The position numbers and the translations under genes were made by a program. A DNA stretch of 38,817 bases from an uncultured Flavobacteriales bacterium (GTDB lineage: Bacteria; Bacteroidota; Bacteroidia; Flavobacteriales_D; Sanyastnellaceae): NCBI GenBank assembly GCA_913041135.1, contig CAJWIF010000008.1, positions 1 to 38,817 of the forward strand, written 5' to 3'. How positions within the stretch are numbered: position 1 is the first letter of the stretch; each line of letters opens with the position of its first letter. The notes beneath the pieces were generated by a model. It did no database searches, was not told where the DNA came from, and worked only from the letters and a program-made list of their open reading frames with translations. Below are positions 2,090 through 37,710 of the stretch, one piece after another.

Positions 2090-3493
2090 TCAGATGTGCA
2101 GCGCGCGGTTGTCTGTCGCAGCAAGGGCAGCTTCTTTGATCGCTTCGGTGAATGTCGGGTGGGCGTGTGACATGCGGCTGATGTCCTCAGCGGTAGCACG
2201 AAACTCCATGGCTACAACGGCTTCAGCAATCATGTCGGCAGCCCGCGGTCCGCAAATGTGAATGCCCAAAATTTCATCCGTGTCGGCGTGAGCCAAGACC
2301 TTGACTGAACCATCCGTGTCCATAGATGCCCGCGCCCTTCCGCTGGCCTTGAAAGGGAATGAACCTGATTTGTATGCGACTTCCGACGCTTTCAGTTGTT
2401 CCTCTGTCTTTCCTACTCCGGCCACTTCGGGCCATGTGTACACCACATTGGGAATTAAATTGTAGTCGATGTGCGGATGCTGTCCTGCGATGACCTCTGC
2501 AGCTACAACACCTTCTTCCTCGGCCTTGTGCGCGAGCATGGCACCACGAACAACGTCACCGATGGCGAATATGTGAGGAACGGATGTTCGCATCTGCTCG
2601 TCTACAGGGATGCGTCCGCGCTCATCCAAAGAAAGCCCAGCCGCCTCCACATTGAGACCGGCGGTAAAGGGTTTTCGCCCAACCGAAACGAGGCAATATT
2701 CTGTTTTCCATTCCACCTCTTGCCCTTTCTTATCGTCGGCTTTTACCACAACACCTTTCGCGCTTGCTTTGACCTCTTTGACCCCATGCTGAAGATGGAA
2801 TTTTACGCCCAACTTTTTCATGGAACGCATGAGCTCTTTGCCCATCGTCCGGTCCATGGTTGGAATGATGGTGTCCTGGTATTCAACAACGTGAACTTCC
2901 GTCCCCAAACGAGCATAAACACTCCCTAATTCCAACCCGATGACACCTCCGCCAATGACCACCATGTGTTTGGGCAAGTCCCTTAAGCTCAACGCTTCGG
3001 TCGATGTGATGACCCGCTTTTTGTCCACATTGATAAAGGGTAGGGAAGCAGGCTTTGATCCCGTGGCAATGATGATGTGCTTTCCGCTAATAGCGGTGGC
3101 CTTGCCTTTACTCGGTGTCACAGCAATGGTGTGCAGATCGACAAAAGAGCCGGTTCCCGTGTGCACTTCGATTCCGTTTTTTTTCATCAGGAAATCAATA
3201 CCGGCCACCGTTTGTTCAACAACGCCCGCCTTGCGGGAGATCATTTGTTTGAAGTCAAGCTTCCAGTCTGAGGCGTGAATGCCGTGTTCTGAAAACTGAT
3301 GCAGTGCTTGGTGGTAATGCTCGGAGCTATCCAAAAGTGCTTTGGACGGTATGCAACCAACATTCAAGCAGGTGCCTCCAAGCGAGCTGTATTTCTCAAC
3401 CAATGCGGTTTTGTTCCCCAATTGTGCTGAGCGAATGGCAGCGACGTACCCTCCAGGTCCGCTGCCGATGACGATAACATCGTAAGATTCCAT
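2090..3493 (-). CDS. lpdA: Dihydrolipoyl dehydrogenase (E3)
   Basis: FAD enzyme that reoxidises dihydrolipoyl groups of 2-oxo acid dehydrogenase complexes with NAD. The protein has 467 aa. The N-terminal FAD-binding motif is VIGSGPGGYVAA, and the redox disulfide motif GGTCLNVGCIPSK gives Cys42 and Cys47. The second nucleotide-binding motif is GGGVIGLELGSVYARLG, the FAD motif is IFAIGDVV, and the C-terminal HAHPTFTEAI supplies the His-Glu pair. The open frame extends 46 codons upstream, but ATG 3493 (MESYDVIVIG) matches the family start. An exact TATCTTTG box lies four bases before it, so the upstream extension is probably untranslated. The partner E1 and E2 genes sucA and sucB lie about 5 kb away on the other strand. 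Confidence 0.97.
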   Translation of the reverse strand: MESYDVIVIGSGPGGYVAAIRSAQLGNKTALVEKYSSLGGTCLNVGCIPSKALLDSSEHYHQALHQFSEHGIHASDWKLDFKQMISRKAGVVEQTVAGIDFLMKKNGIEVHTGTGSFVDLHTIAVTPSKGKATAISGKHIIIATGSKPASLPFINVDKKRVITSTEALSLRDLPKHMVVIGGGVIGLELGSVYARLGTEVHVVEYQDTIIPTMDRTMGKELMRSMKKLGVKFHLQHGVKEVKASAKGVVVKADDKKGQEVEWKTEYCLVSVGRKPFTAGLNVEAAGLSLDERGRIPVDEQMRTSVPHIFAIGDVVRGAMLAHKAEEEGVVAAEVIAGQHPHIDYNLIPNVVYTWPEVAGVGKTEEQLKASEVAYKSGSFPFKASGRARASMDTDGSVKVLAHADTDEILGIHICGPRAADMIAEAVVAMEFRATAEDISRMSHAHPTFTEAIKEAALAATDNRALHI

Positions 3494-3497
3494 GATG

Positions 3498-3505
3498 CAA
3501 AGATA
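3498..3505 (-). promoter_or_regulatory. Exact TAnnTTTG box four bases before lpdA ATG
   Basis: TATCTTTG on the minus strand is followed by CATC and then the lpdA ATG. It matches the Bacteroidota -7 consensus exactly. A TTG occurs 14 bases upstream, shorter than the usual 17-23 spacing. If the transcript starts about five bases after the box, the mRNA is leaderless or nearly so. Confidence 0.65.
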
Positions 3506-3570
3506 AAGCGAACGCCTCGCAATGATGGCAGTGGACCCGTCTTTAGCGCCTGCCATTGCCAAGGAAAAAA

Positions 3571-3578
3571 TATGTTTC
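3571..3578 (+). promoter_or_regulatory. Possible -7 box upstream of RND exporter
   Basis: TATGTTTC (one mismatch to TAnnTTTG), 83 bases before the TTG start of the exporter gene. A TTG lies 12 bases upstream, shorter than ideal. It is the best plus-strand candidate in the divergent lpdA/exporter interval, but it is weak. Confidence 0.25.
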
Positions 3579-3661
3579 TTTGCAACGCGGTTGCAGCCGG
3601 GTACTCCCTGCGTTGAGTCGCCTATGAACATGCCTCAAATCGCCTCAAAATCAATGCTGCG

Positions 3662-6208
3662 TTGATCTGGAATCGCATTGCATCCGTACTACTTCGGCAG
3701 CGTTTATTGCTGCTTATCATCATCGGGTGCTTAACCGTTTTGATGGCTTTGCAGATTCCGAATTTGAGGTTACAGTACACTTTCGGGGGACTTTTGCCTT
3801 CAACGGATACCACGGCGATTGAGTACCAGCATTTCATTGAGAATTTTGGTACAGAGGGAAATGTCTTGCTGATCGGTGCGGACGCACGTGACCTGAGATC
3901 TCCTGAAGGTTTGCAGGCATGGTATGAATTGGCGGAGTCCATCCGGTTCATGGATACCCGTCGAGATACAGTGGATGACGGTATCGACAAGCTTGTTCCA
4001 CTTTCGCTCATCGACAGCGTATTTTCCATTACCCACTCCTTCTCCTTAGAAAAGGACACCGCGTTGCGTCGATTTACGCTGATGCCATTGGTCGACCCGG
4101 GTGCCATGGAAGTGGGGGGTGCGGTGGATTCAATCTTTGTCCAGAACCTGTTTGATCAGGTAGAATCACTGCCTTTCTATGAAGGCCTGCTGTATACAAA
4201 ACGCGGGGACGCGACGCTTTTGACCGTTTTTTTGGATGCTGATTTATTCAATTCGAAGAAACGAGGGACGGTTGTTGAGGACGTGGTCGCGCTGACTGAT
4301 CTATGGAGCGAAAAGCACGGCATTGACTTGGCGATCAGTGGTCTTCCCTTCATCCGAACGGAAATGACCAACAAGGTCAAAGGAGAAATAGGGTGGTTCA
4401 TCGGTGCGGCCATGTTGGTGACGGCCTTGCTGCTCTTATTGTTTTTCCGAAATCCAACCATTACCGGAGTGAGTTTGCTGGTGGTTGGTATGGGCGTGAT
4501 CTGGTCCTTAGGCACGATTTCATTGCTGGATTATCCGGTCAATTTGTTGATGAGTTTGATTCCTCCGTTGATGATTGTCATCGGTGTTCCCAACTGCATT
4601 TATTTGGTCAATAAATACCATGCAGAATACAAACGTCATGGCAATAAAGCCATGGCATTGCAGCGCATGGTGGTCAAAGTTGGCAATGCTACGTTGCTCA
4701 CAAACGTTACCACCGCATTGGGTTTTGCGACGTTTATTTTCACGCACAGTGATATGCTCCGGCAGTTTGGTGTGGTGGCTGCCATCAATATTTTAGTCGT
4801 TTTTGTTATTTCCATCATCGTGATTCCTGCGTTGATGACCTTTTTACCTGCTCCACGGGTGAAGCACACGCGGCATTTGGATCGCCGGTGGATGTTTGTG
4901 TTTGTCAATCACTTGGTAAGAATTGTCCAAGAAAAAAGACCCCATGTGTATGCCGGTGCGTTGGTTATTTTCTTGTTCAGTATCGCTGGGGTTTCTCAAA
5001 TGGTCACCACAGGAAACATCGTGGATGATTTGCCGGAACATGATCGGGTCATTCGGGACTTGAAATGGATGGAGCAGCGCTTCAACGGGGCCATGCCATT
5101 TGAAATGCTAGTGGATACGCGGAGGACCAACGGGGCGACCAATCCGAATGTGTTGAAACGCATTGAATCGCTTCAGGAGATCTTGAAGGAGTACCCTGAG
5201 TTCAGCAGATCAATTAGTGCGGTCGATGCTAGTAAATTTGCGACCCAGGCTTTTTACGGTGGTTCGCCTGAGCGCTATCGCTTGCCCTCGCGACAAGAAC
5301 GCTCGTTCATTGGGCCTTGGATTCGGGGAACGGCAGAAGCCGCAGAAGGGGCTTCCGCATCGGGCGACGTCATGGCTAACTTCTTTGATTCCACACAATC
5401 CATGACCCGAATTTCGACGCAGATGGCGGACGTGGGGACACTGGAAATGCGGGATTTAATGCTGGAATTACGGCCACGCCTAGACAGTCTTTTTCCACCA
5501 GAGAAATTTGATCTCATCTTGACGGGCACGAGCGTGGTGTTTTTGGAAGGAACGAGTTACATGGTTCGGAATCTCGGCATTTCTATCGCTTTGGCGATTT
5601 GTGTGATTGCATTGATGATGGCGCTTTTGTTTAAATCTGCCCGCATGGTGGGCATAGCGCTCATTCCTAACTTATTTCCTCTGCTTTTCACCGCAGGTTT
5701 CATGGGGTGGACCGGTATCCCGATCAAGCCGTCTACGATTTTAGTCTTCAGCATCGCCTTTGGAATTTCGGTGGATGACACCATACACTTTTTGGCGAAA
5801 TACCGTCAAGAGCTGAACTTCAAATCGTGGAACATCAAGGAGTCCGTGATTCTAGCTCTGAAAGAAACAGGGGTGAGTATGATGTACACTTCCATCGTGT
5901 TGTTTTTTGGGTTCTTGATGTTTGCGATGTCGGGATTTGACGGGACGCGGTCACTGGGTATCTTGGTGTCAATCACTCTTGGGGTGGCCATGTTTACCAA
6001 CCTGCTTTTGCTCCCCAGCTTGTTACTTGCTTTTGAGAAATCACTTACCACCAAGTCGTTTTCAGAACCGTTCTTTTCAATTTTGGATGAGGAAGAGGAC
6101 ATCGAATTGGAAGAGTTGTCCATTCAGGAGGGGACGTCGCCGGGTAAGGGTGAAGAACAACACGAGGCGTTAATTCAGCAGCGAAAAAACAAAGGGCATT
6201 CGTCTTGA
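3662..6208 (+). CDS. RND superfamily exporter (MMPL/HAE3-like)
   Basis: Large membrane transporter of 848 aa, likely driven by proton flux; the substrate is unknown (lipids or hydrophobic compounds are typical of relatives). The layout is the RND duplication: one N-terminal membrane segment (about residues 11-31), a soluble domain, a membrane bundle (about 240-400), then the same again (membrane segment near 425, soluble domain, bundle near 640-800). The second bundle contains [16 protein letters not shown], a hallmark block of this family. The C-terminal tail is cytosolic and very acidic ([13 protein letters not shown]). The start is a TTG at 3662: an in-frame TGA lies 48 bases upstream, there is no ATG or GTG in between, and [14 protein letters not shown] looks like the family N-terminus. 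It is followed 31 bases later by rfbA. Confidence 0.85.
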
Positions 6209-6239
6209 GACCGTTGAAAGAATATTCAATATCTGTACC

Positions 6240-7109: not shown

Positions 7110-7120
7110 AACGGCAATCA

Positions 7121-8104: not shown

Positions 8105-8106
8105 AC

Positions 8107-8454: not shown

Positions 8455-8503
8455 GTCTCACGCTTTTGCATCGCTGTAAATAGGCTTGGTGCTTGCGGTC
8501 ATG

Positions 8504-8511
8504 TATCTTTG
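8504..8511 (+). promoter_or_regulatory. sucA promoter -7 box
   Basis: TATCTTTG, an exact TAnnTTTG match, 24 bases before ATG 8536. A TTG 15 bases upstream could be the -33 element. The box overlaps the TTG that begins the longest open frame, so that TTG cannot be the normal start if transcription begins just downstream. Confidence 0.65.
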
Positions 8512-8535
8512 TCAGTCGAAACACGTACTGTCCTC

Positions 8536-11262
8536 ATGGACCCTCTAGATTTTATCAGTCAGGCAGAGCCAAACGCACTGGACGCGCTATACCAGCAATA
8601 CTGCTCTGACCCCGAGTCCGTCGACGCGAGTTGGCAGCTTTTTTTCAAAGGTTTTGATTTGGCTTTGGCCTCCTATGATAAGGAAGCGCCGACCCCTCAA
8701 ACGCTCAAGGAGTTTCAAGTCATCAACTTGATTCAAGCCTACCGCTCACGAGGACACTTATTTACCCGGACCAATCCCGTTCGCGCACGTCGGGTATACA
8801 CGCCCGATTTGAGCTTGTCCAATTTTGGACTGTCTGAATTGGACTTGCCCGTGGTATTTCAAGCAGGACATAAGGTGGGATTGGGGGAAGCGACTTTGCA
8901 ACAGATTGTTGAACACCTCGAGGAGACGTACTGCCATAGCATCGGAATTGAGTACATGATGATCCAAGATGTGGATCGCAAGGCGTGGGTGCGAAAAAAT
9001 ATTGAGTTAGCGAATCGTCCGCGGATCGAATTGGCCGACCGGATTCAGATTTTAAAGAAGCTATCGCAAGCAACCTTGTTTGAAGAATTCTTGCAGAAAA
9101 AATTTGTGGGCCAAAAGCGGTTCTCTTTGGAGGGAGGGGAGACCTTGATCGCTGCGTTGGACGCCGTGATTGAAGAAGGGACATTGCAGGGCGTTCAGGA
9201 GGTGTTCATTGGCATGGCACACCGGGGTCGATTGTCCACGTTGGCGCATGTTTTGGGCAAGCCTTACGAAGAGATTTTCTGTGAATTTGAAGGCAAGGCT
9301 TACGATGATGAAATGGAATTTGACGGCGATGTCAAGTACCATTTGGGTTATTCGAAAACAGTAACTGCGGACTCGGGCGAGTCAGTCTCTATTTCATTGG
9401 CTCCGAACCCTTCGCACTTGGAGGCCGTTGGACCCGTGGTCCAAGGAATGGCTCGAGCTCGCATTGATGATTTGGGAGGGGATGAGACCAAAGTGTTGCC
9501 CATCTTGATCCATGGAGATGCGGCATTTGCTGGTCAAGGGGTTGTCTACGAATTGGCGCAAATGGCCCAACTGGACGGTTACCGTACAGGGGGTACAGTG
9601 CATATCGTGGTCAATAATCAAGTTGGCTTCACAACGAATTATTTGGACGCACGGTCTTCAACATATTGCACAGATGTTAGCAAGGTGACCCAAGCATTGA
9701 GCTTCCATGTCAATGCGGATGATGCAGAAGCGGTTGTGCAAGTCATGCGCATTGCATTGAAGTATCGACAAGAATGGAAGCGGGATGTTTTCATCGACCT
9801 GTTGGGTTACCGAAAATATGGCCACAATGAAGGGGATGAACCGATGTTCACACAGCCACAGCTGTACAAAGCGATCAGCCAGCATTCAAATCCGCTCAAG
9901 ATCTACATGGAACGCCTCATCGCTGATGGGAGCATGGAGTTGACTCAGGCGGAGACCATCCGAGATGAGCAGTTGAAGCAGATGGAAAAGGCGCATGGAA
10001 AAGCGCAGAAAAGGAAAAAAGCAGAGGTACTTGATTTTCTGAGTGATTTGTGGAGTGGCTTTGAAACTCCGACAGAAGAATTATTGCATAGCACGCCGGA
10101 CACAAACGTTTCGGGGAAGAAGCTGAAAGCACTGGCCATTGCCATGTCGACTTTGCCTGAAGGAAAGAAATTCTATCGAAAATCTGTGAAGTTGATGCGG
10201 GATCGGTTGAAGATGATTGAAGATGATCGTCTGGATTGGGCACTCGGAGAAATGCTGGCGTATGCCTCATTGTTGGCTGAAGGCCACCCGGTTCGTATAA
10301 GTGGACAAGACGTAGAGCGGGGTACATTTTCACACCGGCATGCTGTTGTGAAAACCGAAGACACAGAAGAAGAAATTATTCCGCTGAATCACGTGAGTGA
10401 GGGTCAAGCGAAATTGAGTATTTACAACTCCTTGTTGAGTGAATATGCGGTAGCTGGATTTGATTATGGCTATGCCTTTGCGACGCCGAATGGATTGACC
10501 GTTTGGGAGGCGCAATTCGGGGACTTCAACAACGGGGCGCAAATCCTATTCGATCAGTTCTTGAGTGCTGCTGAAGACAAGTGGCGCACCATGAACGGAC
10601 TCACTTTGATGCTCCCTCATGGCTATGAAGGCATGGGTTCCGAGCACAGTTCTGGCCGCATGGAGCGGTTTCTGCAATTGGGAAGTGGTGAGAATATGCT
10701 CATCTGCAATGTGACTGAGCCAGCGAATTACTTTCATTTGCTGCGCCGTCAGGTCAAATGGTCCTTCAGGAAACCACTGATTATTTTCACTCCGAAAAAA
10801 CTACTGCGCTACCCGTTAGCCGTTTCTTCTTTCCAGCAGATGGGTAAGGGAGGTTTTCTAAAGGTCATCGATGATCCGCGTCATGTTGACGCAACATCGG
10901 CCGGCCGAGTAGATACTGTTATGCTGTGTACGGGGAAGGTCTACTATGATATCGTCGAGCAGCTTCAAGAAGTGCAGGCGGACAATCTTGCGTTCGTACG
11001 ATTAGAACAAATTCATCCTTTGCCAGTAGGAGAGTTGGATCAGATTATCCAGAAGTATGGAAGAGATGCCAACTACGTTTGGGTCCAAGAAGAGCCACAG
11101 AATATGGGTGCTTGGAGCTTCATGCTGCAGCATTTTACGCGCGTTCCACTTAGCGTGATTTCACGCCCTATGAGCGCTAGCCCTGCATCGGGCTCCTCGG
11201 AGGTGCACAAAAGCCGACAACAGGAGATCCTCGATGAGGTATTCGCCCATGCCAATCGATAA
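8536..11262 (+). CDS. sucA: 2-Oxoglutarate dehydrogenase E1 component
   Basis: Thiamine-diphosphate enzyme that decarboxylates 2-oxoglutarate and passes the succinyl group to lipoyl-E2 in the TCA cycle. From ATG 8536 the protein has 908 aa. The N-terminus (LDALYQQYCSDPESVDASW) is the E1o-type E2/E3-binding tail. The family blocks are IGMAHRGRLSTLAHVLGK, DVKYHLGYS, LAPNPSHLEAV, HGDAAFAGQGVVYE and NNQVGFTT for the ThDP domain, then GHNEGDEPMFTQP. The transketolase-like C-terminal half contains FGDFNNGAQILFDQF and MLPHGYEGMGSEHSSGR. The longer frame starts at TTG 8509, but a promoter box overlaps that codon, so I use the ATG. sucB follows after 47 bases. Confidence 0.95.
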   Translation: MDPLDFISQAEPNALDALYQQYCSDPESVDASWQLFFKGFDLALASYDKEAPTPQTLKEFQVINLIQAYRSRGHLFTRTNPVRARRVYTPDLSLSNFGLSELDLPVVFQAGHKVGLGEATLQQIVEHLEETYCHSIGIEYMMIQDVDRKAWVRKNIELANRPRIELADRIQILKKLSQATLFEEFLQKKFVGQKRFSLEGGETLIAALDAVIEEGTLQGVQEVFIGMAHRGRLSTLAHVLGKPYEEIFCEFEGKAYDDEMEFDGDVKYHLGYSKTVTADSGESVSISLAPNPSHLEAVGPVVQGMARARIDDLGGDETKVLPILIHGDAAFAGQGVVYELAQMAQLDGYRTGGTVHIVVNNQVGFTTNYLDARSSTYCTDVSKVTQALSFHVNADDAEAVVQVMRIALKYRQEWKRDVFIDLLGYRKYGHNEGDEPMFTQPQLYKAISQHSNPLKIYMERLIADGSMELTQAETIRDEQLKQMEKAHGKAQKRKKAEVLDFLSDLWSGFETPTEELLHSTPDTNVSGKKLKALAIAMSTLPEGKKFYRKSVKLMRDRLKMIEDDRLDWALGEMLAYASLLAEGHPVRISGQDVERGTFSHRHAVVKTEDTEEEIIPLNHVSEGQAKLSIYNSLLSEYAVAGFDYGYAFATPNGLTVWEAQFGDFNNGAQILFDQFLSAAEDKWRTMNGLTLMLPHGYEGMGSEHSSGRMERFLQLGSGENMLICNVTEPANYFHLLRRQVKWSFRKPLIIFTPKKLLRYPLAVSSFQQMGKGGFLKVIDDPRHVDATSAGRVDTVMLCTGKVYYDIVEQLQEVQADNLAFVRLEQIHPLPVGELDQIIQKYGRDANYVWVQEEPQNMGAWSFMLQHFTRVPLSVISRPMSASPASGSSEVHKSRQQEILDEVFAHANR

Positions 11263-17302: not shown

Positions 17303-18328
17303 TCAATTGCGCATCAAGAAGGGGAAGCGATCAATGTTTTTCAATGCAATAGCGGTCCCTTTAGCGACTGCGTGCAGCGGATCGTCAGCAACGTGAACAG
17401 GAAGTCGAGTCCGCGCAGCAATGCGCTTATCCAATCCACGCAATAAGGCTCCACCTCCAGCGAGATAGATGCCGGTTTTGTAGATGTCTGCAGACAATTC
17501 AGGAGGCGTTTGCTCCAAGGCGCTGTGAATGGCTTCTTCGATCTTTGAAATGCTCTTATCCAGAGCTTGTGCGATTTCCCGGTAAGAGACCAAGATTTCC
17601 TTGGGAATTCCGGTCATCAAGTCCCGACCTCGGACCGGGTAGTCTTCAGGGGGATTGTCCAATTCAGGCATGGCGGATCCCACTTCAATCTTAATCTGTT
17701 CAGCCGTCCTTTCGCCGATCAAGATGTTGTGTTGCCGTCGCATATACTCTTCGATATCCGATGTAAAGTCATCTCCAGCCACGCGAATGTTTTTATCGGT
17801 GACAATGCCACCGAGCGCAATGACTGCAATTTCAGAAGTGCCTCCCCCGATGTCAATGATCATGTTGCCCATGGGTTCTTCAACATCAATACCGATTCCA
17901 ATGGCTGCGGCCATGGGTTCGTGTATGAGATAGACATCCTTTCCTCCGGCATGCTCTGCGCTATCGCCAACGGCACGCTTTTCTACCTCGGTTATTCCGG
18001 AAGGGATGCAGATGACCATACGAAGCGAAGGCGTGAACCAGCTTTTACGCACATTCATCATTTTGATCATGCCCTTGATCATTTCTTCAGCAGCCTGAAA
18101 ATCAGCAATAACGCCGTCCTTGAGCGGTCGAATTGTTTCGATGTTCTTGTGCGTTTTTCCGTGCATTTGCTGTGCTAAACGGCCAATGGCAACAATGCGG
18201 TTGGTCGAACGGTCTTTCGCAACAATGCTAGGCTCATCTACAACAACTTTATCCTGGTAGTAGATAATCGTGTTAGCTGTGCCGAGATCGATGGCGATCT
18301 CCTGCATGAAAAAATTGAACAGGCCCAT
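17303..18328 (-). CDS. mreB: Cell shape-determining actin-like protein MreB
   Basis: Actin-like ATPase whose filaments under the inner membrane guide wall synthesis. The protein has 341 aa. The N-terminus is MGLFNFFMQEIAIDLGTANT, with phosphate loop 1 DLGTANT. Other family blocks are VDEPSIVAKD, HEPMAAAIGIG, IDIGGGTSEIAVIALGG and TGIYLAGGGALLRGLD. ATG 18328 is chosen over an upstream ATG because this N-terminus fits Bacteroidota MreB. A TATATTTG box 45 bases upstream gives a short leader, so the mre genes can be transcribed separately from purH. Confidence 0.97.
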   Translation of the reverse strand: MGLFNFFMQEIAIDLGTANTIIYYQDKVVVDEPSIVAKDRSTNRIVAIGRLAQQMHGKTHKNIETIRPLKDGVIADFQAAEEMIKGMIKMMNVRKSWFTPSLRMVICIPSGITEVEKRAVGDSAEHAGGKDVYLIHEPMAAAIGIGIDVEEPMGNMIIDIGGGTSEIAVIALGGIVTDKNIRVAGDDFTSDIEEYMRRQHNILIGERTAEQIKIEVGSAMPELDNPPEDYPVRGRDLMTGIPKEILVSYREIAQALDKSISKIEEAIHSALEQTPPELSADIYKTGIYLAGGGALLRGLDKRIAARTRLPVHVADDPLHAVAKGTAIALKNIDRFPFLMRN

Positions 18329-20073: not shown

Positions 20074-20081
20074 TAGCTTTG
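20074..20081 (+). promoter_or_regulatory. Exact TAnnTTTG box four bases before permease ATG
   Basis: TAGCTTTG, then TTGA, then the ATG at 20086. This is the same architecture as lpdA and the cytochrome-b-like gene. It is divergent from the purH box about 45 bases away. Confidence 0.6.
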
Positions 20082-20085
20082 TTGA

Positions 20086-21327
20086 ATGCTGTGGTTGCGC
20101 CTTTTACGCGAGAGTTTCTTGTTTGCATGGTCGGCCATTTTAATGAACCGATTGCGCACCTTTTTGTCTTTGTTGGGCGTGATGGTCGGCATCTTTATGA
20201 TCACTGCTGTTTTTGCGGTAGTGGATTCATTGGAAGATGGGCTGAAGAGCACCTTTAATATTCTGGATGACGATGTGCTGTTCGTCCAAAAATGGCCGTG
20301 GTCCTTTGGAGAAGATTACCCTTGGTGGAAGTATGTTCAACGCAGAGAGGTGAGCATTCGCGACATGGAACTGCTCGGTGAGCGCATGCAAAAAGCCGAG
20401 ACCGTGGCATTTCAGGCAAAAGAGGGCGGTTCCATAGAAGCCGGCAATAGCCGCATGGATGGAATTGGTGTTCTTGCGGTTACAACGGGTTATCCTGATG
20501 TAATTTCATTGGACATTGAGCACGGACGATTTTTTTCAGCATCCGAAAGTGCTGCAGGCCAGTCAATCGCCATCATCGGCTATGACATTGCCATGGAACT
20601 GTTTGGGAGGGCAGATGCCCGGGACCGGGAAGTAGAAATCAAGGGGCAAGTGCTTCAGGTGATTGGGGTGTTTGCTCAACAAGGGTCTTCCATTGTCAAC
20701 GATGGTTTCGATCGTGCCGTTCTGGTTCCTGCCAAATTTGGATCTCGGATCATGAATTATTCCGAGGGGACGAGTATCATGGTGAAGCCAAAGGAGGATG
20801 TTTCTTCGGTTGAATTGTCCGACGAGCTCATCCAACAATTCAGGTCGATTCGACGATTGCGACCGCTCGAAGAGGATGACTTTTCGATCAACCAAATAGG
20901 AATGCTGACCTCGATATTAGATGCCATTTTTGTTCAAGTGGAATACGGAGGTTGGTTCATTGGGATCTTTGCTATTCTCGTGGGTTGCTTTAGTATCGCC
21001 AACATCATGTTTGTAAGTGTCCGGGAGCGCACCCGCATCATTGGGGTTCAAAAAGCAATTGGTGCGAAATCCACCTTTATCCTGACTCAGTTTCTGTTTG
21101 AAGCGGTTGCATTGTGCTTGTTTGGTGCATTGTTTGCGTTGCTGGCGATTGAAGGCATCGTGGTGCTGGTCAATGTGCTGGATGTGGGCATCGAACTGAA
21201 GGTGCGCCCTTCACGGATTGTAATCGCTCTAAGCGTTGCGGTGGCTTCGGGATTGCTAGCGGGTGTGGCTCCGGCGCGTAAAGCAGCGCGAATGGAGCCA
21301 GTGGAAGCGATGCGTACGAACGCGTGA
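20086..21327 (+). CDS. MacB/FtsX-type ABC transporter permease
   Basis: Permease subunit of the type that moves lipoproteins, peptides or drugs by coupling a cytosolic ATPase to periplasmic movement. The protein has 413 aa. One membrane segment lies near residues 25-47 (LSLLGVMVGIFMITAVFAV), followed by a large periplasmic MacB-PCD domain (about 50-270). Three C-terminal segments form the FtsX domain, with the typical block VRERTRIIGVQKAIGAKSTFI before the second. The C-terminus ends PARKAARMEPVEAMR, a signature of the family. No ATPase gene is adjacent. The start is supported by the box four bases upstream. The substrate is unknown. Confidence 0.9.
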   Translation: MLWLRLLRESFLFAWSAILMNRLRTFLSLLGVMVGIFMITAVFAVVDSLEDGLKSTFNILDDDVLFVQKWPWSFGEDYPWWKYVQRREVSIRDMELLGERMQKAETVAFQAKEGGSIEAGNSRMDGIGVLAVTTGYPDVISLDIEHGRFFSASESAAGQSIAIIGYDIAMELFGRADARDREVEIKGQVLQVIGVFAQQGSSIVNDGFDRAVLVPAKFGSRIMNYSEGTSIMVKPKEDVSSVELSDELIQQFRSIRRLRPLEEDDFSINQIGMLTSILDAIFVQVEYGGWFIGIFAILVGCFSIANIMFVSVRERTRIIGVQKAIGAKSTFILTQFLFEAVALCLFGALFALLAIEGIVVLVNVLDVGIELKVRPSRIVIALSVAVASGLLAGVAPARKAARMEPVEAMRTNA

Positions 21328-21342
21328 GCGTCATTCATTTTG

Positions 21343-21350
21343 TATCTTTA
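21343..21350 (+). promoter_or_regulatory. TATCTTTA box four bases before rfbD ATG
   Basis: One mismatch to TAnnTTTG, followed by GAGT and the rfbD ATG. It lies 15 bases after the permease stop, so rfbD may have its own leaderless start in addition to read-through. Confidence 0.45.
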
Positions 21351-21354
21351 GAGT

Positions 21355-22242
21355 ATGAGACGCATCATCATCACAGGTGCTCAAGGTCAATTGGGAAAGC
21401 GGTTGGTTGAGCAGTTGGGACAGCACAATGAAATGGAGGCAATTGCTCTCGATCGCAATGCCTTGAATATTTCGGATTACGATGCTGTACTCATGGCATT
21501 AGAACGCTGGTCTCCTGACGGAGTCATCAATGCTGCGGCATACACGGCTGTGGATCAGGCTGAAGACGAACAGGAGTTGGCGCATGCTGTCAATGCCAAA
21601 GGCCCGGAAAACCTGGCCAGGGCATGTGCCCTAAAAGACATCGACTTCATTCACGTTAGCACGGACTATGTGTTCAATGGATTGTCCACGACCCCATACC
21701 GAACAACAGACACCCCTGATCCGATTGGAATCTATGGGGTGACGAAACTGGCCGGTGAAACAGCTGTCCAAAAGGCCTTTTTGGATGGGGAATCCAATGC
21801 GAAACACTGGGTTTTCAGAGTGGCTTGGTTATACGATGCTGTTGGAAAGAATTTTTTAACGACGATGTTGCGCTTGGCAGAGAAAGGTCAACCGCTGCGA
21901 GTGGTCAGTGATCAATGGGCTTCCCCGACAGCAGCTGGTCCTTTGGCCGGCATGCTCATCGATTGCATGGCAGCGCCAAATCGATTGCCAGCAGCTGTTT
22001 GGCATTATGGAACGGAAGGCCCGACTCACTGGTGCGATTTTGCAAAGGCTATTTTTGAATTGAGTGATCTGCAGGTAGATGTAATCCCCTGCAGTTCAAG
22101 CGAATACCCTACGAAGGCCCGTCGACCTTCGTATTCTTATTTGGACCCTCATCCGCTGATGACAGCATTGGGACGACAAGCTGTACCTTGGAAAGACGAG
22201 CTCGAGCATTGCTTGAGCGAGCTAAATCGAACGAAGAGATGA
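21355..22242 (+). CDS. rfbD: dTDP-4-dehydrorhamnose reductase
   Basis: Last step of dTDP-L-rhamnose synthesis, reducing dTDP-4-keto-rhamnose with NAD(P)H. The protein has 295 aa. The Rossmann motif is ITGAQGQLGKRL, and family blocks are NAAAYTAVDQAEDE, HVSTDYVFNG, YGVTKLAGE (with the catalytic Tyr-Lys) and VSDQWASPT. ATG 21355 gives the standard N-terminus. Its stop overlaps the pgm start by four bases (ATGA), so sugar-nucleotide and sugar-phosphate steps are coupled. rfbA is separate, at 6.2 kb. Confidence 0.94.
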   Translation: MRRIIITGAQGQLGKRLVEQLGQHNEMEAIALDRNALNISDYDAVLMALERWSPDGVINAAAYTAVDQAEDEQELAHAVNAKGPENLARACALKDIDFIHVSTDYVFNGLSTTPYRTTDTPDPIGIYGVTKLAGETAVQKAFLDGESNAKHWVFRVAWLYDAVGKNFLTTMLRLAEKGQPLRVVSDQWASPTAAGPLAGMLIDCMAAPNRLPAAVWHYGTEGPTHWCDFAKAIFELSDLQVDVIPCSSSEYPTKARRPSYSYLDPHPLMTALGRQAVPWKDELEHCLSELNRTKR

Positions 22243-24015: not shown

Positions 24016-24606
24016 TCACTTCTCTTGAAGCTGTTCGACACCACTCTGTACACTGTCTTCAAGCCGGTCCACCCCGTTTTGAAGGTTGTCTCGGAGCTCC
24101 TCCCAGGGCGTGTCCCGGCGCATTTCTGGAATGAGCATTTCAATCGCCGTTTCAACATGAGGAAATAGAATGGCTTCTTTCGCGGCGTTTTCGGGGACCC
24201 AAGCGCGTGCTCCAAAAACGGAATCCAAAGCGAATGTGATAATGCTTAGTAAGCACAGCATTTGGATGAAACCAAGAGCCATTCCTGCCAACTTATTGAC
24301 AACGCCGAGGGCTGTCAGATCAACAATCTTCTCGATCATTTTACCGATCATGTGGACTCCGATGACCACCAAGATAAAGGCGAGAACAAAGGCTGTCAGG
24401 GCCAGGACACTTTCAGGCCAATCCAATTCTTCATGGAGCCAAGTGGCAAGTCCATCCGAACCATGGAACCCGGCAAAAACGCCGGCAACGAGCGCAATTA
24501 ATGAAACGATCTTCACGACGAATCCTTTCTGGAATCCACGCCATAGAGCCCACAAAAGAGGCACTGCAAGTACAAAATCGATCGGAGCTGCATCTGGCCA
24601 TTCCAT
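24016..24606 (-). CDS. CvpA family membrane protein
   Basis: Small inner-membrane protein with 196 aa. Four hydrophobic segments lie at about residues 10-20, 28-48, 65-88 and 100-125, followed by a hydrophilic C-terminal tail ending in a probable coiled coil (DNLQNGVDRLEDSVQSGVEQ). The pattern PIDFVLAVPLLWALWRGFQKGF at the N-terminus and GKMIEKIVDLTALGVVNKLAG in the middle are typical of CvpA/colicin V production proteins. Their cell role is poorly defined (envelope maintenance in some species). It converges on pgm with a gap of 7 bases and diverges from the acetyltransferase gene with a 46-base gap. Confidence 0.85.
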   Translation of the reverse strand: MEWPDAAPIDFVLAVPLLWALWRGFQKGFVVKIVSLIALVAGVFAGFHGSDGLATWLHEELDWPESVLALTAFVLAFILVVIGVHMIGKMIEKIVDLTALGVVNKLAGMALGFIQMLCLLSIITFALDSVFGARAWVPENAAKEAILFPHVETAIEMLIPEMRRDTPWEELRDNLQNGVDRLEDSVQSGVEQLQEK

Positions 24607-24610
24607 GCAA

Positions 24611-24618
24611 GCAAGGTA
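24611..24618 (-). promoter_or_regulatory. Weak TACCTTGC box four bases before cvpA ATG
   Basis: Two mismatches to TAnnTTTG, then TTGC and the ATG. It is listed because its offset matches the other boxes. On its own it would not be convincing. Confidence 0.25.
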
Positions 24619-24640
24619 AGGTCAGGACACGGAGTGTTGG

Positions 24641-24648
24641 TACCTTTC
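24641..24648 (+). promoter_or_regulatory. TACCTTTC box four bases before acetyltransferase ATG
   Basis: One mismatch to TAnnTTTG, followed by AGAC and the ATG at 24653. This predicts a leaderless mRNA. Confidence 0.4.
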
Positions 24649-24652
24649 AGAC

Positions 24653-25144
24653 ATGGAAAATGATCGAGAAGATTGGACTGTTCGTTCTGGGGTGGTCGCA
24701 GATGTCCCCGCTATTCATCAATTAATAGTGGATTTAGCGATCTACGAACGCGCAGAGTTAGAAGTGGTGGTTACGGTGGAAACGTTGATTGCAGACGGCT
24801 TTGGGCCGGATGCGATTTACGAATTGGAAGTGGCTGAATCTGGTGGACGTGTCGTTGGGATGGCTTTGTGGTACGTGAAGTACAGCACTTGGAAAGGCAA
24901 ATGTGGTTACTTGGAAGATTTAATGGTAGCAGAATCGCACCGCGGGTTGGGAATTGGAAAGGCCCTTTTTGAAGAGGTTGCGCGAACCAGTGCCAATCGC
25001 GGCTACCTGCGCATGGAATGGCAGGTTCTGGACTGGAATGAAGCGGCGATTGGTTTCTACAAACGCCTGGGGGCAGAACTAGATGAAGAGTGGTTCAATG
25101 GCAAACTGACAGGAAATGCGCTGTCGGGCTATAAAGAAGTATAA
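24653..25144 (+). CDS. GNAT family N-acetyltransferase (diamine/thialysine acetyltransferase-like)
   Basis: Transfers acetyl from acetyl-CoA to an amine. The protein has 163 aa, a single GNAT fold. The acetyl-CoA loop is VAESHRGLGIGKALFEEV (Q/RxxGxG/A type), preceded by the strand CGYLEDLMV. The C-terminal motif MEWQVLDWNEAAIGFYKRLGA is characteristic of the spermidine/thialysine acetyltransferase branch. The substrate remains a guess. The start ATG has a TACCTTTC box four bases upstream. Its 3' side leads into a structured, terminated region. Confidence 0.87.
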   Translation: MENDREDWTVRSGVVADVPAIHQLIVDLAIYERAELEVVVTVETLIADGFGPDAIYELEVAESGGRVVGMALWYVKYSTWKGKCGYLEDLMVAESHRGLGIGKALFEEVARTSANRGYLRMEWQVLDWNEAAIGFYKRLGAELDEEWFNGKLTGNALSGYKEV

Positions 25145-30762: not shown

Positions 30763-30766
30763 GACG

Positions 30767-31815: not shown

Positions 31816-31821
31816 ATCGAA

Positions 31822-33066: not shown

Positions 33067-33068
33067 GA

Positions 33069-33407
33069 TTACTTTTTCAAGGCTTCGTTGATCGCCTCAT
33101 AATAATCGAGACTATCATCCAAGTAAAAATTCAATTCTGGAATAATCCGCACCTGCTTACCGATCTTATCGCTGAGTGCTTTGCGGATACGCCATCCTTC
33201 GTTCTTCACGGCTTGCAACGCGACGTGCTTGTCCGGAACGGCCATAAAACTCAAGTAGACTTTGGACAAACCCAAGTCGGGAGCCATCCGCACCTTCGTG
33301 ACTGAAATGAAGATTCCTCCAAACCATTCCCCGCTACGTTGCTGAAAAATGGTGCTCAAATCCCTGCGGATGAGTTCGGCTACTTTTTCTTGACGGATTC
33401 CTCCCAT
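33069..33407 (-). CDS. rbfA: Ribosome-binding factor A
   Basis: Assists late maturation of the 30S subunit and 16S rRNA 5' end. The protein has 112 aa, a single KH-like domain. Blocks: IRQEKVAELIRRDLSTIF at the N-terminus, ISVTKVRMAPDLGLSKVYLSF in the middle, and RIRKALSDKIGKQVRIIPELNFYLDDS at the C-terminus. The frame reaches nine codons further upstream, but ATG 33407 fits the family and has GACCTTTG four bases before it. It follows hflX by 42 bases; both products act on ribosomes. Confidence 0.93.
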   Translation of the reverse strand: MGGIRQEKVAELIRRDLSTIFQQRSGEWFGGIFISVTKVRMAPDLGLSKVYLSFMAVPDKHVALQAVKNEGWRIRKALSDKIGKQVRIIPELNFYLDDSLDYYEAINEALKK

Positions 33408-33411
33408 GTGC

Positions 33412-33419
33412 CAAAGGTC
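33412..33419 (-). promoter_or_regulatory. GACCTTTG box four bases before rbfA ATG
   Basis: One mismatch to TAnnTTTG, then GCAC and ATG 33407. It lies inside the 42-base gap after hflX, suggesting a separate leaderless promoter for rbfA and the permease. Confidence 0.4.
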
Positions 33420-33449
33420 GCAAACATGCGCCAATGCGTGACCTCTGAA

Positions 33450-34628: not shown

Positions 34629-34631
34629 TGT

Positions 34632-34976
34632 TTAGTCGCGAAATTGCTCAATATATTTGGCGATTCCACGGATCGTGGCATCATCCAAAATGCCTTTTTG
34701 AGGAGGCATCGTGCCCTTTCCATAGGTGATCAGTGCCACGCGTTCTTCCAAGGACATCTCGGACAACGAGAGATCGGGTGCTTTGGAGGCCATAAGACGA
34801 CCATCTGTTCCATGGCACAACGAACATTTCATGGTGTAGGCACGCTGAATCTGACCGTCAGATGGAGGTGCTTTCTTGACGCTATTCTGGGCAGTGTTGT
34901 CCGTTGAACCGCATCCCATTCCCATGAGAACACAGCCCAAGAGCATGGCGCCGCTCCAAGCCAAACGATGTCCCAT
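34632..34976 (-). CDS. c-type cytochrome, probable lipoprotein
   Basis: Small monohaem cytochrome c with 114 aa. A hydrophobic signal region with Cys candidates for lipidation (LLGC near residue 14 and MGC near 22) is followed by a linker and one haem site CSLCH, with the sixth-ligand Met likely in GKGTMPPQKG. The tail IRGIAKYIEQFRD is the standard C-terminal helix. ATG 34976 overlaps the upstream gene's TGA by one base; an alternative ATG lies three codons earlier. Together with the preceding membrane protein it may form an electron-transfer pair. Electron donor and acceptor are unknown. Confidence 0.88.
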   Translation of the reverse strand: MGHRLAWSGAMLLGCVLMGMGCGSTDNTAQNSVKKAPPSDGQIQRAYTMKCSLCHGTDGRLMASKAPDLSLSEMSLEERVALITYGKGTMPPQKGILDDATIRGIAKYIEQFRD

Positions 34977-35428
34977 CAAAACCATCCGTAGGCTTCAAAG
35001 CCTGGCCGGATAGGCCAAGGAATGCTGGCCATGATAAGGACCAAAGCGAGACCAAAAAAGAGGAATTGACGTTTGTATTTAACCGTGTCGTCGGAAGCGC
35101 GCTTGACCAAGCTGTGTCCAAGTGTCCCCAGTATTACAGCGATGAGCATGCCGATGAGATGTTCGACGACAAAGAACCGCATGACCGCAATGCCCATGAT
35201 GGTCGAATCACCCAACATTGATGACCACCCTTTTCCTATGTACAATGTCAATCCGAGTAGGAGTTGAACGTGCAAGCTGATCATGGTAAACAAGCCGAGT
35301 TTGGCCTGCTTTGCCGAGAAGGCGTCGCCTTTGCTTTTTCCGATGCGGGATTGAATTAAAGTCCAAACCAGCAAAAACAATACGACCCAACGAAGGGCAC
35401 TGTGGAGGTGTTGAAATCCTGTGAGCAT
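34976..35428 (-). CDS. Cytochrome-b-like four-helix membrane protein
   Basis: A 150-aa membrane protein with four hydrophobic segments (about 12-28, 45-65, 80-105, 121-138). Conserved-looking His residues fall where haem b ligands would: HLHSALRW at the first helix, LHVQLLLG in the second, VEHLIGM and TLGHSLVK near the third. I recognise the pattern as the small protein often called cytochrome B in Bacteroidota; biochemical function is not established as far as I know. It ends PWPIRPGFEAYGWF. It is followed directly by a c-type cytochrome gene. An exact TATCTTTG box lies four bases before its ATG. Confidence 0.8.
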   Translation of the reverse strand: MLTGFQHLHSALRWVVLFLLVWTLIQSRIGKSKGDAFSAKQAKLGLFTMISLHVQLLLGLTLYIGKGWSSMLGDSTIMGIAVMRFFVVEHLIGMLIAVILGTLGHSLVKRASDDTVKYKRQFLFFGLALVLIMASIPWPIRPGFEAYGWF

Positions 35429-35432
35429 GGTT

Positions 35433-35440
35433 CAAAGATA
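35433..35440 (-). promoter_or_regulatory. Exact TAnnTTTG box four bases before cytochrome-b-like ATG
   Basis: TATCTTTG, AACC, ATG on the minus strand. The box touches the 3' base of the gdhA terminator stem, so termination and initiation signals abut. Confidence 0.65.
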
Positions 35441-35476
35441 ACGCCCCAAGTCTGCTGTTAGCGAGACTTGGGGCGT
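35441..35476 (-). terminator. 13-bp perfect hairpin after gdhA
   Basis: ACGCCCCAAGTCT pairs perfectly with AGACTTGGGGCGT around a ten-base loop, starting 25 bases after the gdhA stop. On the minus strand it is followed by TATCTTTG and not by a pure T-tract, so it is an imperfect intrinsic terminator. On the plus strand a CAATTCTTTT follows, but no plus gene needs it. Confidence 0.65.
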
Positions 35477-35501
35477 CAATTCTTTTAAAACGAGACAGGT
35501 G

Positions 35502-36857
35502 TCAGACGACGCCTTGATCAATCATCGAGTCAGCAACTTTCACGAAGCCCGCAATGTTGGCGCCTCGCACATAATTCACATGACCATCGGCGTTCTTCCC
35601 GTAGGCCACACATTGGCTATGAATGTCTTTCATAATGGTGAGCAATCGCTCATCCACTTCTTCTCGAGACCAGCTGATCCGCAAACTGTTTTGTGACATC
35701 TCCAATCCGCTAGTTGCGACTCCACCTGCATTGGATGCTTTGCCTGGGGCAAACAACACCTTGGCCTGGTCGAATACCTCAATGGCTTCTGGGGTACTCG
35801 GCATGTTGGCACCTTCTGCAATGACAATGCAGCCGTTATTTACGAGTGCGTGCGCTTCCTCTTCATTGAGTTCATTCTGCGTTGCACACGGAAATGCGGC
35901 GTGACAAGCAATGCCCCAAGGCCGTTGGCCTCCGTGGAATGTGGCTCCAGGGAATTGGGCAACGTATTCTTGGATACGGCCTCTTCGATTGTTCTTGAGG
36001 TCCATGATCCAGTCCAACTTCGCGCGGTCGATTCCAGCAGGATCATGAATGAATCCTTTGGAGTCGGACATGGTGAGCACCTTGGCTCCCATTTGAATGC
36101 ATTTTTCAGCGGCATATTGCGCCACGTTGCCCGATCCGGAGATGACAGCGGACTTGCCCTCGAAATTTTCGCCTTTTGTCGCAAGCATCTCTGCAGCGAA
36201 GTAAACGGTACCATAGCCGGTCGCTTCAGGGCGGATCAACGATCCTCCCCAATTGCGGCCTTTGCCTGTAAGGACGCCTGTAAACTCATTGCGCAAACGC
36301 TTGTATTGACCAAAGAGATAGCCAATTTCACGACCACCAACGCCGATGTCTCCTGCGGGGACATCTGTGTTGGGACCAATGTGTCGAGACAATTCCGTCA
36401 TGAAACTCTGGCAAAAACGCATCACCTCAGCATCCGATTTCCCCTTGGGATTGAAATCGGAACCGCCTTTTCCGCCGCCCATGGGCAACGTGGTTAAGCT
36501 GTTCTTGAACACCTGCTCGAATCCGAGGAATTTCAAAACACTCAACGTCACCGTCGGGTGAAACCGCAACCCGCCTTTGTAAGGCCCGATTGCCGAATTG
36601 AATTCTACCCGGTAACCGCGGTTGATTTGAACTTCGCCCGCATCAGTTGTCCAAGGAACTCGGAAAATAATCGTTCGTTCTGGCTCAACCATGCGTTCCA
36701 AAATGCGATGCTTCGCATATTGGGGGTGGTCAGCAATGAAAGGAATGACGGTCTCAGCGACCTCTTGTACCGCTTGAATGAACTCAGGTTCATGTGCGTT
36801 TTGGGCAGCCACTTGTGCCATGAAGGCATCAATCTGCGCCTGGTGAGATAGGGACAT
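35502..36857 (-). CDS. gdhA: Glutamate dehydrogenase (NADP-type)
   Basis: Interconverts 2-oxoglutarate plus ammonia and glutamate. The 451-aa length and sequence fit the hexameric NADP-preferring family. Glutamate-site blocks: GPYKGGLRFHPTV and PMGGGKGGSDFNPKGKS (catalytic Lys), DVPAGDIGVGGREIGYLFG, and RPEATGYG. The nucleotide-binding domain shows SGSGNVAQYAAEK. Start ATG 36857 (MSLSHQAQIDAFM); a TTG one codon earlier is ignored. Its promoter box overlaps the end of the upstream SDR gene region, so it may be expressed independently. Confidence 0.96.
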   Translation of the reverse strand: MSLSHQAQIDAFMAQVAAQNAHEPEFIQAVQEVAETVIPFIADHPQYAKHRILERMVEPERTIIFRVPWTTDAGEVQINRGYRVEFNSAIGPYKGGLRFHPTVTLSVLKFLGFEQVFKNSLTTLPMGGGKGGSDFNPKGKSDAEVMRFCQSFMTELSRHIGPNTDVPAGDIGVGGREIGYLFGQYKRLRNEFTGVLTGKGRNWGGSLIRPEATGYGTVYFAAEMLATKGENFEGKSAVISGSGNVAQYAAEKCIQMGAKVLTMSDSKGFIHDPAGIDRAKLDWIMDLKNNRRGRIQEYVAQFPGATFHGGQRPWGIACHAAFPCATQNELNEEEAHALVNNGCIVIAEGANMPSTPEAIEVFDQAKVLFAPGKASNAGGVATSGLEMSQNSLRISWSREEVDERLLTIMKDIHSQCVAYGKNADGHVNYVRGANIAGFVKVADSMIDQGVV

Positions 36858-36884
36858 CAACGTATATATTAACGTTCAGAGCGA

Positions 36885-36892
36885 CAAATCTA
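36885..36892 (-). promoter_or_regulatory. gdhA promoter -7 box
   Basis: TAGATTTG (exact TAnnTTTG) on the minus strand, 27 bases before the gdhA ATG and 2 bases after the SDR stop codon. No TTG lies at standard spacing. Confidence 0.5.
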
Positions 36893-36894
36893 AG

Positions 36895-37698
36895 TCACAA
36901 GGACAAAGTTCGACCACCATCAACCGGTAAATTGATTCCGGAAATGTAACTCGCTGAAGGCGAAGCTAAAAAAGCGATGGCGCGAGCAATCTCTTCAGGT
37001 TTTCCTGTGCGGTTCATGGGAACAGCTGCAGCCATCTGATTGCGAATAGCTTCCTTGGATAAACCCGATTTGAGCGCTTTTGAAGAAATGATTTCATCAA
37101 GGCGGCCCGTGTCAGTTGCTCCAGGTAGGACATTGTTGACAGTGATGCCATGCATACCCACCTCATTGGCCCATGTTTTGGCCCAGTTAGCGACGGCACC
37201 TCGTACGGTATTGCTAACGCCTAAACCGGAAAGAGGTTGTTTAACGCTCGTACTGATCACATTGATAATCCGGCCAAATCCGGCCTCTTTCATTCCAGGG
37301 AAAACGGCCTGTGCGAGCAGTTGATTGCAAATCAGGTGTTGCTCAAATGTCTTCATAAAGGCCTCCGGAGTTGCTTCAACGATGGGGCCGCCAGCAGGGC
37401 CACCTGTGTTGTTGACGAGAATATGAACAGTTTCGGAATCGACTATGGCGCCGATTTGTTCTTGAACATCTGCAGGGTGACTGAAGTCAGCCACGGCGAA
37501 AGCATGCCGACTAGGCTCTTCAAGTGACTGCAACGCCGCTTCAAGTTTCTGCGCATTGCGCGCCACGATAATAACCCGTGCTCCCAATCCAGCCAAGTGC
37601 TGGGCTGTAGCTAAACCAATTCCTTGAGAAGCGCCGCACACTACGGCAGTTCTGTTCTCCAAGTTCATTGGCATCCAGTTTGATCCTTGATGACTCAT
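36895..37698 (-). CDS. Short-chain dehydrogenase/reductase
   Basis: NAD(P)-dependent oxidoreductase of the classical SDR type, 267 aa. Cofactor motif GASQGIGLA, NTGG (the NNAG-like motif; here NNTGG), catalytic Ser in NVISTS. At the usual YxxxK position the sequence reads GVSNTVRGAVANWAKTW: the Tyr is replaced, with a Lys four to eight residues later. This variation is typical of the 3-oxoacyl-reductase-like atypical branch, so activity is uncertain. The C-terminal ISGINLPVDGGR is standard. ATG 37698 is chosen because TACCTTCG lies four bases upstream; a later Met (37668) would also fit the Rossmann start. The substrate is unknown. Confidence 0.85.
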   Translation of the reverse strand: MSHQGSNWMPMNLENRTAVVCGASQGIGLATAQHLAGLGARVIIVARNAQKLEAALQSLEEPSRHAFAVADFSHPADVQEQIGAIVDSETVHILVNNTGGPAGGPIVEATPEAFMKTFEQHLICNQLLAQAVFPGMKEAGFGRIINVISTSVKQPLSGLGVSNTVRGAVANWAKTWANEVGMHGITVNNVLPGATDTGRLDEIISSKALKSGLSKEAIRNQMAAAVPMNRTGKPEEIARAIAFLASPSASYISGINLPVDGGRTLSL

Positions 37699-37702
37699 GC
37701 TG

Positions 37703-37710
37703 CGAAGGTA
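37703..37710 (-). promoter_or_regulatory. TACCTTCG box four bases before SDR ATG
   Basis: One mismatch to TAnnTTTG, then CAGC and ATG 37698 on the minus strand. Confidence 0.4.

Follow-up and report, generated by a model that had tools for sequence, protein, structure and literature searches.

In the genome of an uncultured relative of Flavobacterium, a Flavobacteriales bacterium of the family Sanyastnellaceae (assembly GCA_913041135.1), many genes carry a TAnnTTTG box exactly four bases before an ATG start codon. The window analysed here is positions 1 to 38,817 of contig CAJWIF010000008.1, where an earlier note had described seven such sites and suggested that leaderless translation may be a common mode in this organism. 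We propose, with a probability of roughly 0.87, that promoters starting transcription at the A of the ATG give leaderless mRNAs for ~7-12% of genes, while a second, conventional class has leaders. The DNA supports the leaderless reading of the earlier note, but "common" has to be understood as ~7-12% of genes, or ~40% of the box-bearing promoters near starts.

In the mechanism that we favor, the box, which has the form TAHHTTYG in this genome, would be the -7 element for the housekeeping sigma factor of Bacteroidota, placed so that the predicted transcription start coincides with the A of the ATG. The mRNA would then begin with 5'-AUG, and ribosomes would initiate on this 5'-terminal start codon without a leader. 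The base at -1 is C in 80-90% of these sites, and it may help to stop a base from being added before the AUG because RNA polymerase rarely starts with C, a poor initiating base.

A box at one fixed offset

The assembly is incomplete (2.295 Mb in 174 contigs), and all genome counts are compared with the reversed pattern instead of with a shifted gap. With four bases between box end and ATG (gap 4, or N4), exact TAnnTTTG-N4-ATG occurs 79 times in the genome and its reversed pattern 13 times; the refined form TAHHTTYG-N3-C-ATG occurs 96 times versus 4. Distances to gene starts were measured in an 828,620-base sample. Known hits partly guided the choice of stretches L001-L020 in this sample, which biases all-sample figures upward. 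A held-out sample therefore comprised 20 stretches (L021-L040, 393 kb) running from base 1 of contigs C18 and C21-C39, picked irrespective of hits, although at a point when the list of hits was already known. Our own dicodon gene caller found 724 genes, 333 of them in the held-out part.

In the 828,620-base sample, 33 ATGs opening reading frames of at least 80 amino acids lie at gap 4 after 292 boxes, and the next most frequent distance, gap 5, has 9. In the held-out stretches, such an ATG follows 10 of 122 boxes at gap 4, and the count is at most 4 at every other gap between 0 and 44. When up to one mismatch is allowed, 34 of 292 held-out ATG-candidate genes have a gap-4 box, compared with a mean of 4.4 and a largest value of 12 over gaps 9-40. 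We also trained a weight matrix on 40 sites from elsewhere in the genome. At threshold 7 it places 29 of 288 held-out genes at gap 4 (other shifts mean 1.2, largest 9), and at threshold 4 it places 39 there (other shifts mean 3.6, largest 13). The peak is one base wide: 45 genes at gap 4, none at gap 3, and 9, 4, and 4 at gaps 5, 6, and 7. Gap 4 is thus the most frequent single box-to-start distance in the genome sample, and the class comprises ~7% of genes by the strict consensus or ~10-12% by the matrix. The earlier note had named a genome-wide peak at offset four as its own test, and such a peak appears both in the whole-genome counts and in the held-out sample. Neither GTG starts (4 genes with up to one mismatch versus 2.4 background) nor TTG starts (5 versus 6.7) show a comparable peak, in a test whose power is limited because the 269 GTG- and 474 TTG-candidate genes presumably mostly start elsewhere. 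Within the power of this sample, the fixed-offset box is confined to ATG starts.

The same box also defines a second class of promoter. Box positions are bimodal, with the one-base peak at gap 4, few boxes at gaps 8-15, and a broad hump extending to about gap 45; gaps 14-32 sum to 58 against a background of ~1 per gap. The leadered class, with boxes ~14-45 bases from the ATG, coexists with the leaderless class. For the held-out sample we estimate 19.3 leaderless promoters at gaps 3-5 and 26.8 leadered ones at gaps 14-45, a leaderless share of 0.42, and the whole, partly hit-placed sample gives 0.47. Calculated in this way, the share is 0.55 in congener G014 (9 sites with a gap of 3-5), 0.59 in family member G023 (10), and 0.53 in G201 of another family (8); across the window region of five congeners it is 0.28 (12). 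The lower shares in Maribacter (0.16; 3 sites, 89 kb) and Algoriphagus (0.26; 3 sites, 200 kb) are suggestive only. Separately, the leadered class has minor peaks at the single gaps 16 and 34 in our sample, with 9 genes each, and 5 of 11 inspected rows at gap 34 are a second ATG 30 bases inside genes with an N4 box.

Base profiles were drawn from 74 N4 sites, 30 exact and 44 with one mismatch. C replaces the third T of TTTG in 48% of the one-mismatch sites, and TAHHTTCG at gap 4 precedes 20 genes (0.25 per gap background), while TAHHTTTG precedes 25 (0.71). The TTCG form, which the earlier note counted as a mismatch, is therefore a regular variant of the box and not a defect. TAnnTTGC also peaks at gap 4 (6 genes versus 0.27 per gap) and TAnnTTGT has 0 genes there in the sample; the TAnnTTGC form agrees with the Flavobacterium psychrophilum motif SM5, which is TAnnTTGY and spans -12 to -5 (PMC9723704). 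G is found at -9 in 0 of 74 sites. C occupies -1 in 90% of the exact and 80% of the one-mismatch sites, compared with 47% of other ATG starts and 39% of internal in-frame ATGs. A general C-at-(-1) initiator in all promoters was considered and rejected, since C occupies the equivalent place (fourth base) after 34% of 56 leadered boxes.

Promoter, translation signal, or chance

Is the box a promoter element or a signal read on the mRNA? Operon-internal genes, defined as those that overlap the preceding gene on their strand or start no more than 15 bases from it, account for 6 of 74 boxed genes versus 178 of 513 others (p=7.6e-7). The N4 box thus sits at transcription-unit starts and not inside operons. 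A Kozak-like translation signal, with transcription starting further upstream, should not avoid operon-internal genes, which need such signals equally, and the rarity of the box there argues for a promoter element. A translation signal would have some precedent, since upstream bases are used for start selection in Bacteroidota (PMC6847099, PMC9976891), and the other ATG starts in this genome are A-rich at -15 to -11. However, the same box recurs at gaps 14-32 in the second class, and G is absent at -9 as in a promoter, so we consider a translation signal highly improbable. Together, the absence of G at -9, the position at transcription-unit starts, and the conservation in relatives described below support assigning the box as a putative promoter, the Bacteroidota -7 element that the earlier note took it to be.

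Near-start promoters could also leave leaders of 1-4 bases, making the messages nearly leaderless. A spacing of 4 or 5 bases in F. johnsoniae (PMC6847099) and the few genes at gaps 5, 6, and 7 would fit such leaders. They are nonetheless improbable given a gap-4 peak one base wide and the C at -1, a poor initiator that is far less frequent after leadered boxes. Chance combined with base composition, arising from reading many start regions, could be suspected from only three exact sites in 38.8 kb. Moreover, the box without an ATG is not enriched in the window, with 20 occurrences versus 15.2 in shuffles, 16 of 100 of which reach 20. The box alone being at chance frequency, the signal is the offset and not the box: shuffles of the window (n=100) contain a mean of 0.35 exact TAnnTTTG-N4-ATG sites and 0 of 100 reach the observed 3, confirming that the three exact sites exceed chance expectation. 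Chance is refuted by the genome-wide and held-out counts, conservation also speaks against it, and its probability is negligible.

Transcription from the A of the ATG remains the reading that we prefer, but several observations weigh against it. The 5' ends are inferred from DNA, in an incomplete assembly, and gene starts come from our own, unbenchmarked caller. About 10 of the 74 profile sites are expected by chance (background 10.0). At -10, G is avoided only in part, being present in 17% of the exact and 7% of the one-mismatch sites; in F. johnsoniae promoters, G is virtually absent at both N positions (-10 and -9), and the spacing is often 4-5 bases (PMC6847099). A is the fifth base after 41% of the 56 leadered boxes, which together with the 34% for C at the fourth leaves the exact start point without independent confirmation inside this genome. 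The base profile of the 74 sites shows no clear -33 element by eye, and the -33 element TTTG is much less evident in F. johnsoniae also (PMC6847099). A smaller single-gap peak occurs at gap 16 (10 held-out genes at threshold 6 and 7 at threshold 8). In relatives, the G of the box at -5 is only 64% identical over 25 ortholog pairs, and among these near-relative rows the gap is 3 or 5 in 4, while 1 carries a box with two mismatches.

The exact-box genes look like ordinary housekeeping and metabolic genes by content. A Pfam scan of ten such held-out genes identified a tRNA methyl transferase, an epimerase, a class-III aminotransferase, an outer membrane efflux protein, CinA, an M42 peptidase, a carboxyl transferase, and TruB; two had no match at 1e-8.

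Relatives and the ribosome

How well is the box kept in relatives? Column identity was computed for seven window genes in 25 ortholog pairs from G453, G462, G454, and G455, genomes whose upstream DNA has diverged. Identity is 28-56% at -34 to -14, 84-88% at -13 to -11, 52% at -10, 72% at -9, and 92-100% at -8 to -6, and the ATG itself is invariant (100%). An N4 box that has no more than one mismatch persists in 20 of 25 rows versus 2 of 88 for other genes in the same four genomes, and in 24 of 25 pairs when gaps 3-5 are allowed. By genome, it is kept in 6/7 genes in G452, 7/7 in G453, 4/7 in G462, 5/7 in G454, 4/4 in G455, and 2/4 in the more distant G457; the corresponding values for other genes are 0/20, 0/29, 1/25, 1/27, 0/7, and 1/11.

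The N4 trait is graded and extends beyond this genus. The pattern outnumbers its reversed control 1554 to 284 in 22 genus genomes, 1347 to 409 in 15 other family members, and 1871 to 1140 in 23 others of the order. Among 95 same-class genomes, 0 reach the ratio of 6.1 found here and one (G416) reaches its excess per Mb. Genomes above this excess per Mb include G044 of the order (128 versus 33, 2.2 Mb) and G024 of the family (136 versus 39, 2.5 Mb), and three genomes of family f36 exceed the ratio with fewer sites (G201, 56 versus 8; G193, 38 versus 6; G170, 28 versus 4). The N4 excess here is greater than in most other Bacteroidota sampled. Elsewhere, the ratio to control is higher in family f16 (2.05, 8 genomes) than in f17 (1.32, 40 genomes; p=1.4e-5).

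The history of a single promoter can be followed at lpdA, the dihydrolipoyl dehydrogenase gene. The N4 box is present in 5 of 5 congener loci (L041-L044 and L066, with one mismatch in L043 and L066); the LpdA of L041, labelled Flavobacteriales bacterium ANT-22, is 97% identical. In the 47 of 80 orthologous loci inspected, an exact gap-4 box occurs in 4 (L041, L042, L044, and L114). Outside the genus, 17 of 21 other exact-box loci have the box at gap 19-28, corresponding to a leader of ~15-24 nt. An exact box lies further out in 4 of the 47 loci (L059, L081, L082, and L120), whereas in 20 the 60 bases before the start contain none. In G457 the gap is 22. L114, with its exact N4 box before lpdA, comes from a metagenome-assembled genome (1.7 Mb) labelled Chryseobacterium gleum, a label that may be wrong.

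Has the ribosome changed along with these promoters? No 16S was found in our own assembly, and the only complete 16S 3' end found among the 22 genus genomes is that of congener G014 (L176, G014:C27). It ends GGATTATCTCC and has an altered anti-Shine-Dalgarno (anti-SD) sequence with the core UCUCC (tail TATCTCC). In its 16S region, G014 shares 94% identity with congener G001 and 89.7, 89.5, and 84.9% with family members G025, G026, and G031. The pattern GGAAGGTGCGGCTGGANNNNNTCC matches 105 of 395 phylum genomes, with ACCTCC in every match listed, and the 290 non-matches are uninformative. With a pattern requiring CTCC, tails were readable in 11 of 114 family genomes: 8 have ACCTCC, and the altered ones are TATCTCC in G014 and TAACTCC in G553 and G562, the latter two being one genome each of two other family genera, with GGATTAACTCC. 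Scanning 20 high-excess genomes for 16S gave 7 matches and 5 readable 3' ends. In family f16, the sole 16S tail obtained (G334, L181) has ATCTCA at the anti-SD.

In many Flavobacteriales, rpsU carries the one strong Shine-Dalgarno (SD) sequence (PMC9976891). Its pairing with the canonical tail is -15.9 kcal/mol in G028 and -4.3 to -6.2 in G526, G032, G031, and G026. In 6 of 6 genus genomes examined it is -0.3 to -1.4 kcal/mol (to -2.1 with the genus tail), so that no SD is present. The g14 genomes (3 of 3) range from +0.6 to -0.3 kcal/mol, and four genomes of g10 range from -0.1 to -4.0. In the genus, rpsU (the bS21 gene; upstream regions L198-L202, L204) has a box ~20 bases upstream and no SD, while G028 of the same family has a strong one. 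Pairing is also weak despite ACCTCC in G025 (-3.1), G022 (-2.2), and G490 (-1.3); this, with the N4 excess in G025 and G022, counts against a simple link between the anti-SD and leaderless genes. An anti-SD change as sufficient cause was rejected, because family members with intact CCUCC show N4 excess (G025, 129 versus 48; G026, 126 versus 42; G031, 115 versus 31). Canonical-tail f36 genomes also have it (G162, 33 versus 10; G116, 41 versus 16).

We therefore treat a coupling of anti-SD decay to the spread of leaderless genes as a lead, not a result. A bolder proposal, which we think rather doubtful, is that leaderless initiation has grown to be a main mode in this family and the ribosome has followed, SD pairing being perhaps wholly abandoned; it would draw on the anti-SD altered in three genera (one genome each, two different substitutions) and on the lack of an SD in the genus at rpsU, usually the last gene of Flavobacteriales to rely on SD pairing. 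The lineage offers a natural test of whether leaderless translation spreads as SD pairing decays. The Chryseobacterium group also has a substituted CCUCC core (UCUCA), but its rpsU keeps a fully complementary SD (PMC9976891), unlike the genus described here, where one congener has the core UCUCC and rpsU lacks an SD in all six genomes.

Known systems and the sites in the window

Leaderless mRNAs and the TAnnTTTG box are each already known, and leaderless genes were suspected earlier in silico for this phylum (PMC5397173). In four Bacteroidetes species, non-SD genes show a C signal just upstream of the start codon and an AT-rich bias upstream, and Bacteroidetes are said to have been reported with many leaderless mRNAs (PMC5397173). 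The available part of that paper averages all non-SD genes and gives no box, fixed offset, or gene list. The sigma-A (sigma-ABfr) promoters of F. psychrophilum and F. johnsoniae use the same -7 box, TAnnTTTG (TAHHTTTG), many 4-5 bases from the start, with a minor leaderless class. Compared with these Flavobacterium promoters, ~42% of near-start box promoters here lie at gap 3-5, TTCG nearly equals TTTG (20 versus 25), and the C at -1 is marked. Leaderless mRNAs are 5.5% of those mapped in F. psychrophilum (PMC9723704), 87% of F. johnsoniae leaders exceed 10 nt (PMC6847099), and ~3.7% of 5' untranslated regions in B. thetaiotaomicron are shorter than 10 nt (PMC7366714). Short or missing leaders are thus uncommon in the three transcript-mapped Bacteroidota species, and the lineage described here would have a larger class that is legible in its DNA. 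TA-led leaderless genes of Actinobacteria and Deinococcus-Thermus likewise place a core element ~12 bases before the start, but their boxes are TANNNT, unlike TAnnTTTG (PMC3160421). Of 37 Bacteroidetes/Chlorobi genomes in the same survey, 1 had leaderless genes, at 2.4%, and TAnnTTTG may escape the signal as defined there (PMC3160421). Among the titles and abstract openings listed by our searches of the open PMC literature, we found no report of a fixed TAnnTTTG-N4-ATG class in Bacteroidota.

All seven sites of the earlier note are present in the window as it described them, three exact and four with one mismatch at the identical offset; coordinates throughout are those of the window. The exact site TATCTTTG-CATC-ATG (3491..3505, minus strand) precedes lpdA (coding sequence 3493-2090, TIGR01350 above cut-off). 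Here the box can be used to correct start-codon assignments, placing the lpdA start at 3493, where its orthologs start, and not at an upstream in-frame codon. The second exact site, TAGCTTTG-TTGA-ATG (20074..20088, plus strand), precedes a MacB/FtsX-type permease (20086-21327, Pfam match). Its exact N4 box recurs in G452, G453, G454, G455, and G457 (51% protein identity, start one codon shifted), with gap 5 in G462. The third, TATCTTTG-AACC-ATG (35426..35440, minus strand), precedes a 150-amino-acid protein (35428-34976) and is exact in 4 of 4 relatives compared. The label "cytochrome-b-like" given earlier to this gene is unsupported, as it has no Pfam or NCBIfam match.

The four one-mismatch sites precede genes of varied function. 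TATCTTTA-GAGT-ATG (21343..21357, plus strand) lies before rfbD/rmlD (21355-22242, TIGR01214), with a one-mismatch N4 box in G452, G453, G455, and G457 (start one codon shifted) and gap 3 in G462 and G454. TACCTTTC-AGAC-ATG (24641..24655, plus strand) lies before a GNAT acetyltransferase (24653-25144); the N4 box has at most one mismatch in G453, G454, and G455, two mismatches in G452, and gap 5 in G462, and there is none in G457. Before rbfA (33407-33069, PF02033), GACCTTTG-GCAC-ATG (33405..33419, minus strand) has one mismatch in G452, G453, and G462 and two in G454. TACCTTCG-CAGC-ATG (37696..37710, minus strand), of the TAnnTTCG type, lies before an SDR-family oxidoreductase (37698-36895) and is TAnnTTCG at N4 in 4 of 4 relatives compared. 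By contrast, a leadered promoter has TATCTTTG 24 bases upstream of the ATG at 8536 (8504..8538, plus strand), and the gap is 24-25 in G453, in G454, and, with one mismatch in the box, in G462.

Weaker versions of the box had been suggested for three further genes. For cvpA (24606-24016), TACCTTGC-TTGC-ATG (24604..24618, minus strand) lies at the same offset and fits another known form, TAnnTTGC-N4-ATG; this form is kept in G452 and G453 and not in G462, G454, G455, or G457. At pabB, which starts with GTG, the stretch TATCTTCC is kept in two near relatives, but GTG starts have no clear gap-4 peak in the sample. The gene at 18328 (minus strand), presumed to be the mreB of the earlier note, has GACCTTTC with two mismatches, and four in G462 and G454.

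The cvpA and GNAT genes also illustrate a compact divergent promoter layout. They are transcribed from opposite strands with starts 46 bp apart (24604-24655), and each side has an N4 box. Any -33 region would fall near or inside the opposite gene at the 32-50 bp that separate the ATGs of five divergent site pairs genome-wide (C2 40720/40761, C10 30796/30821, C14 7279/7302, C63 6778/6817, and C108 2496/2533), in part at putative gene starts.

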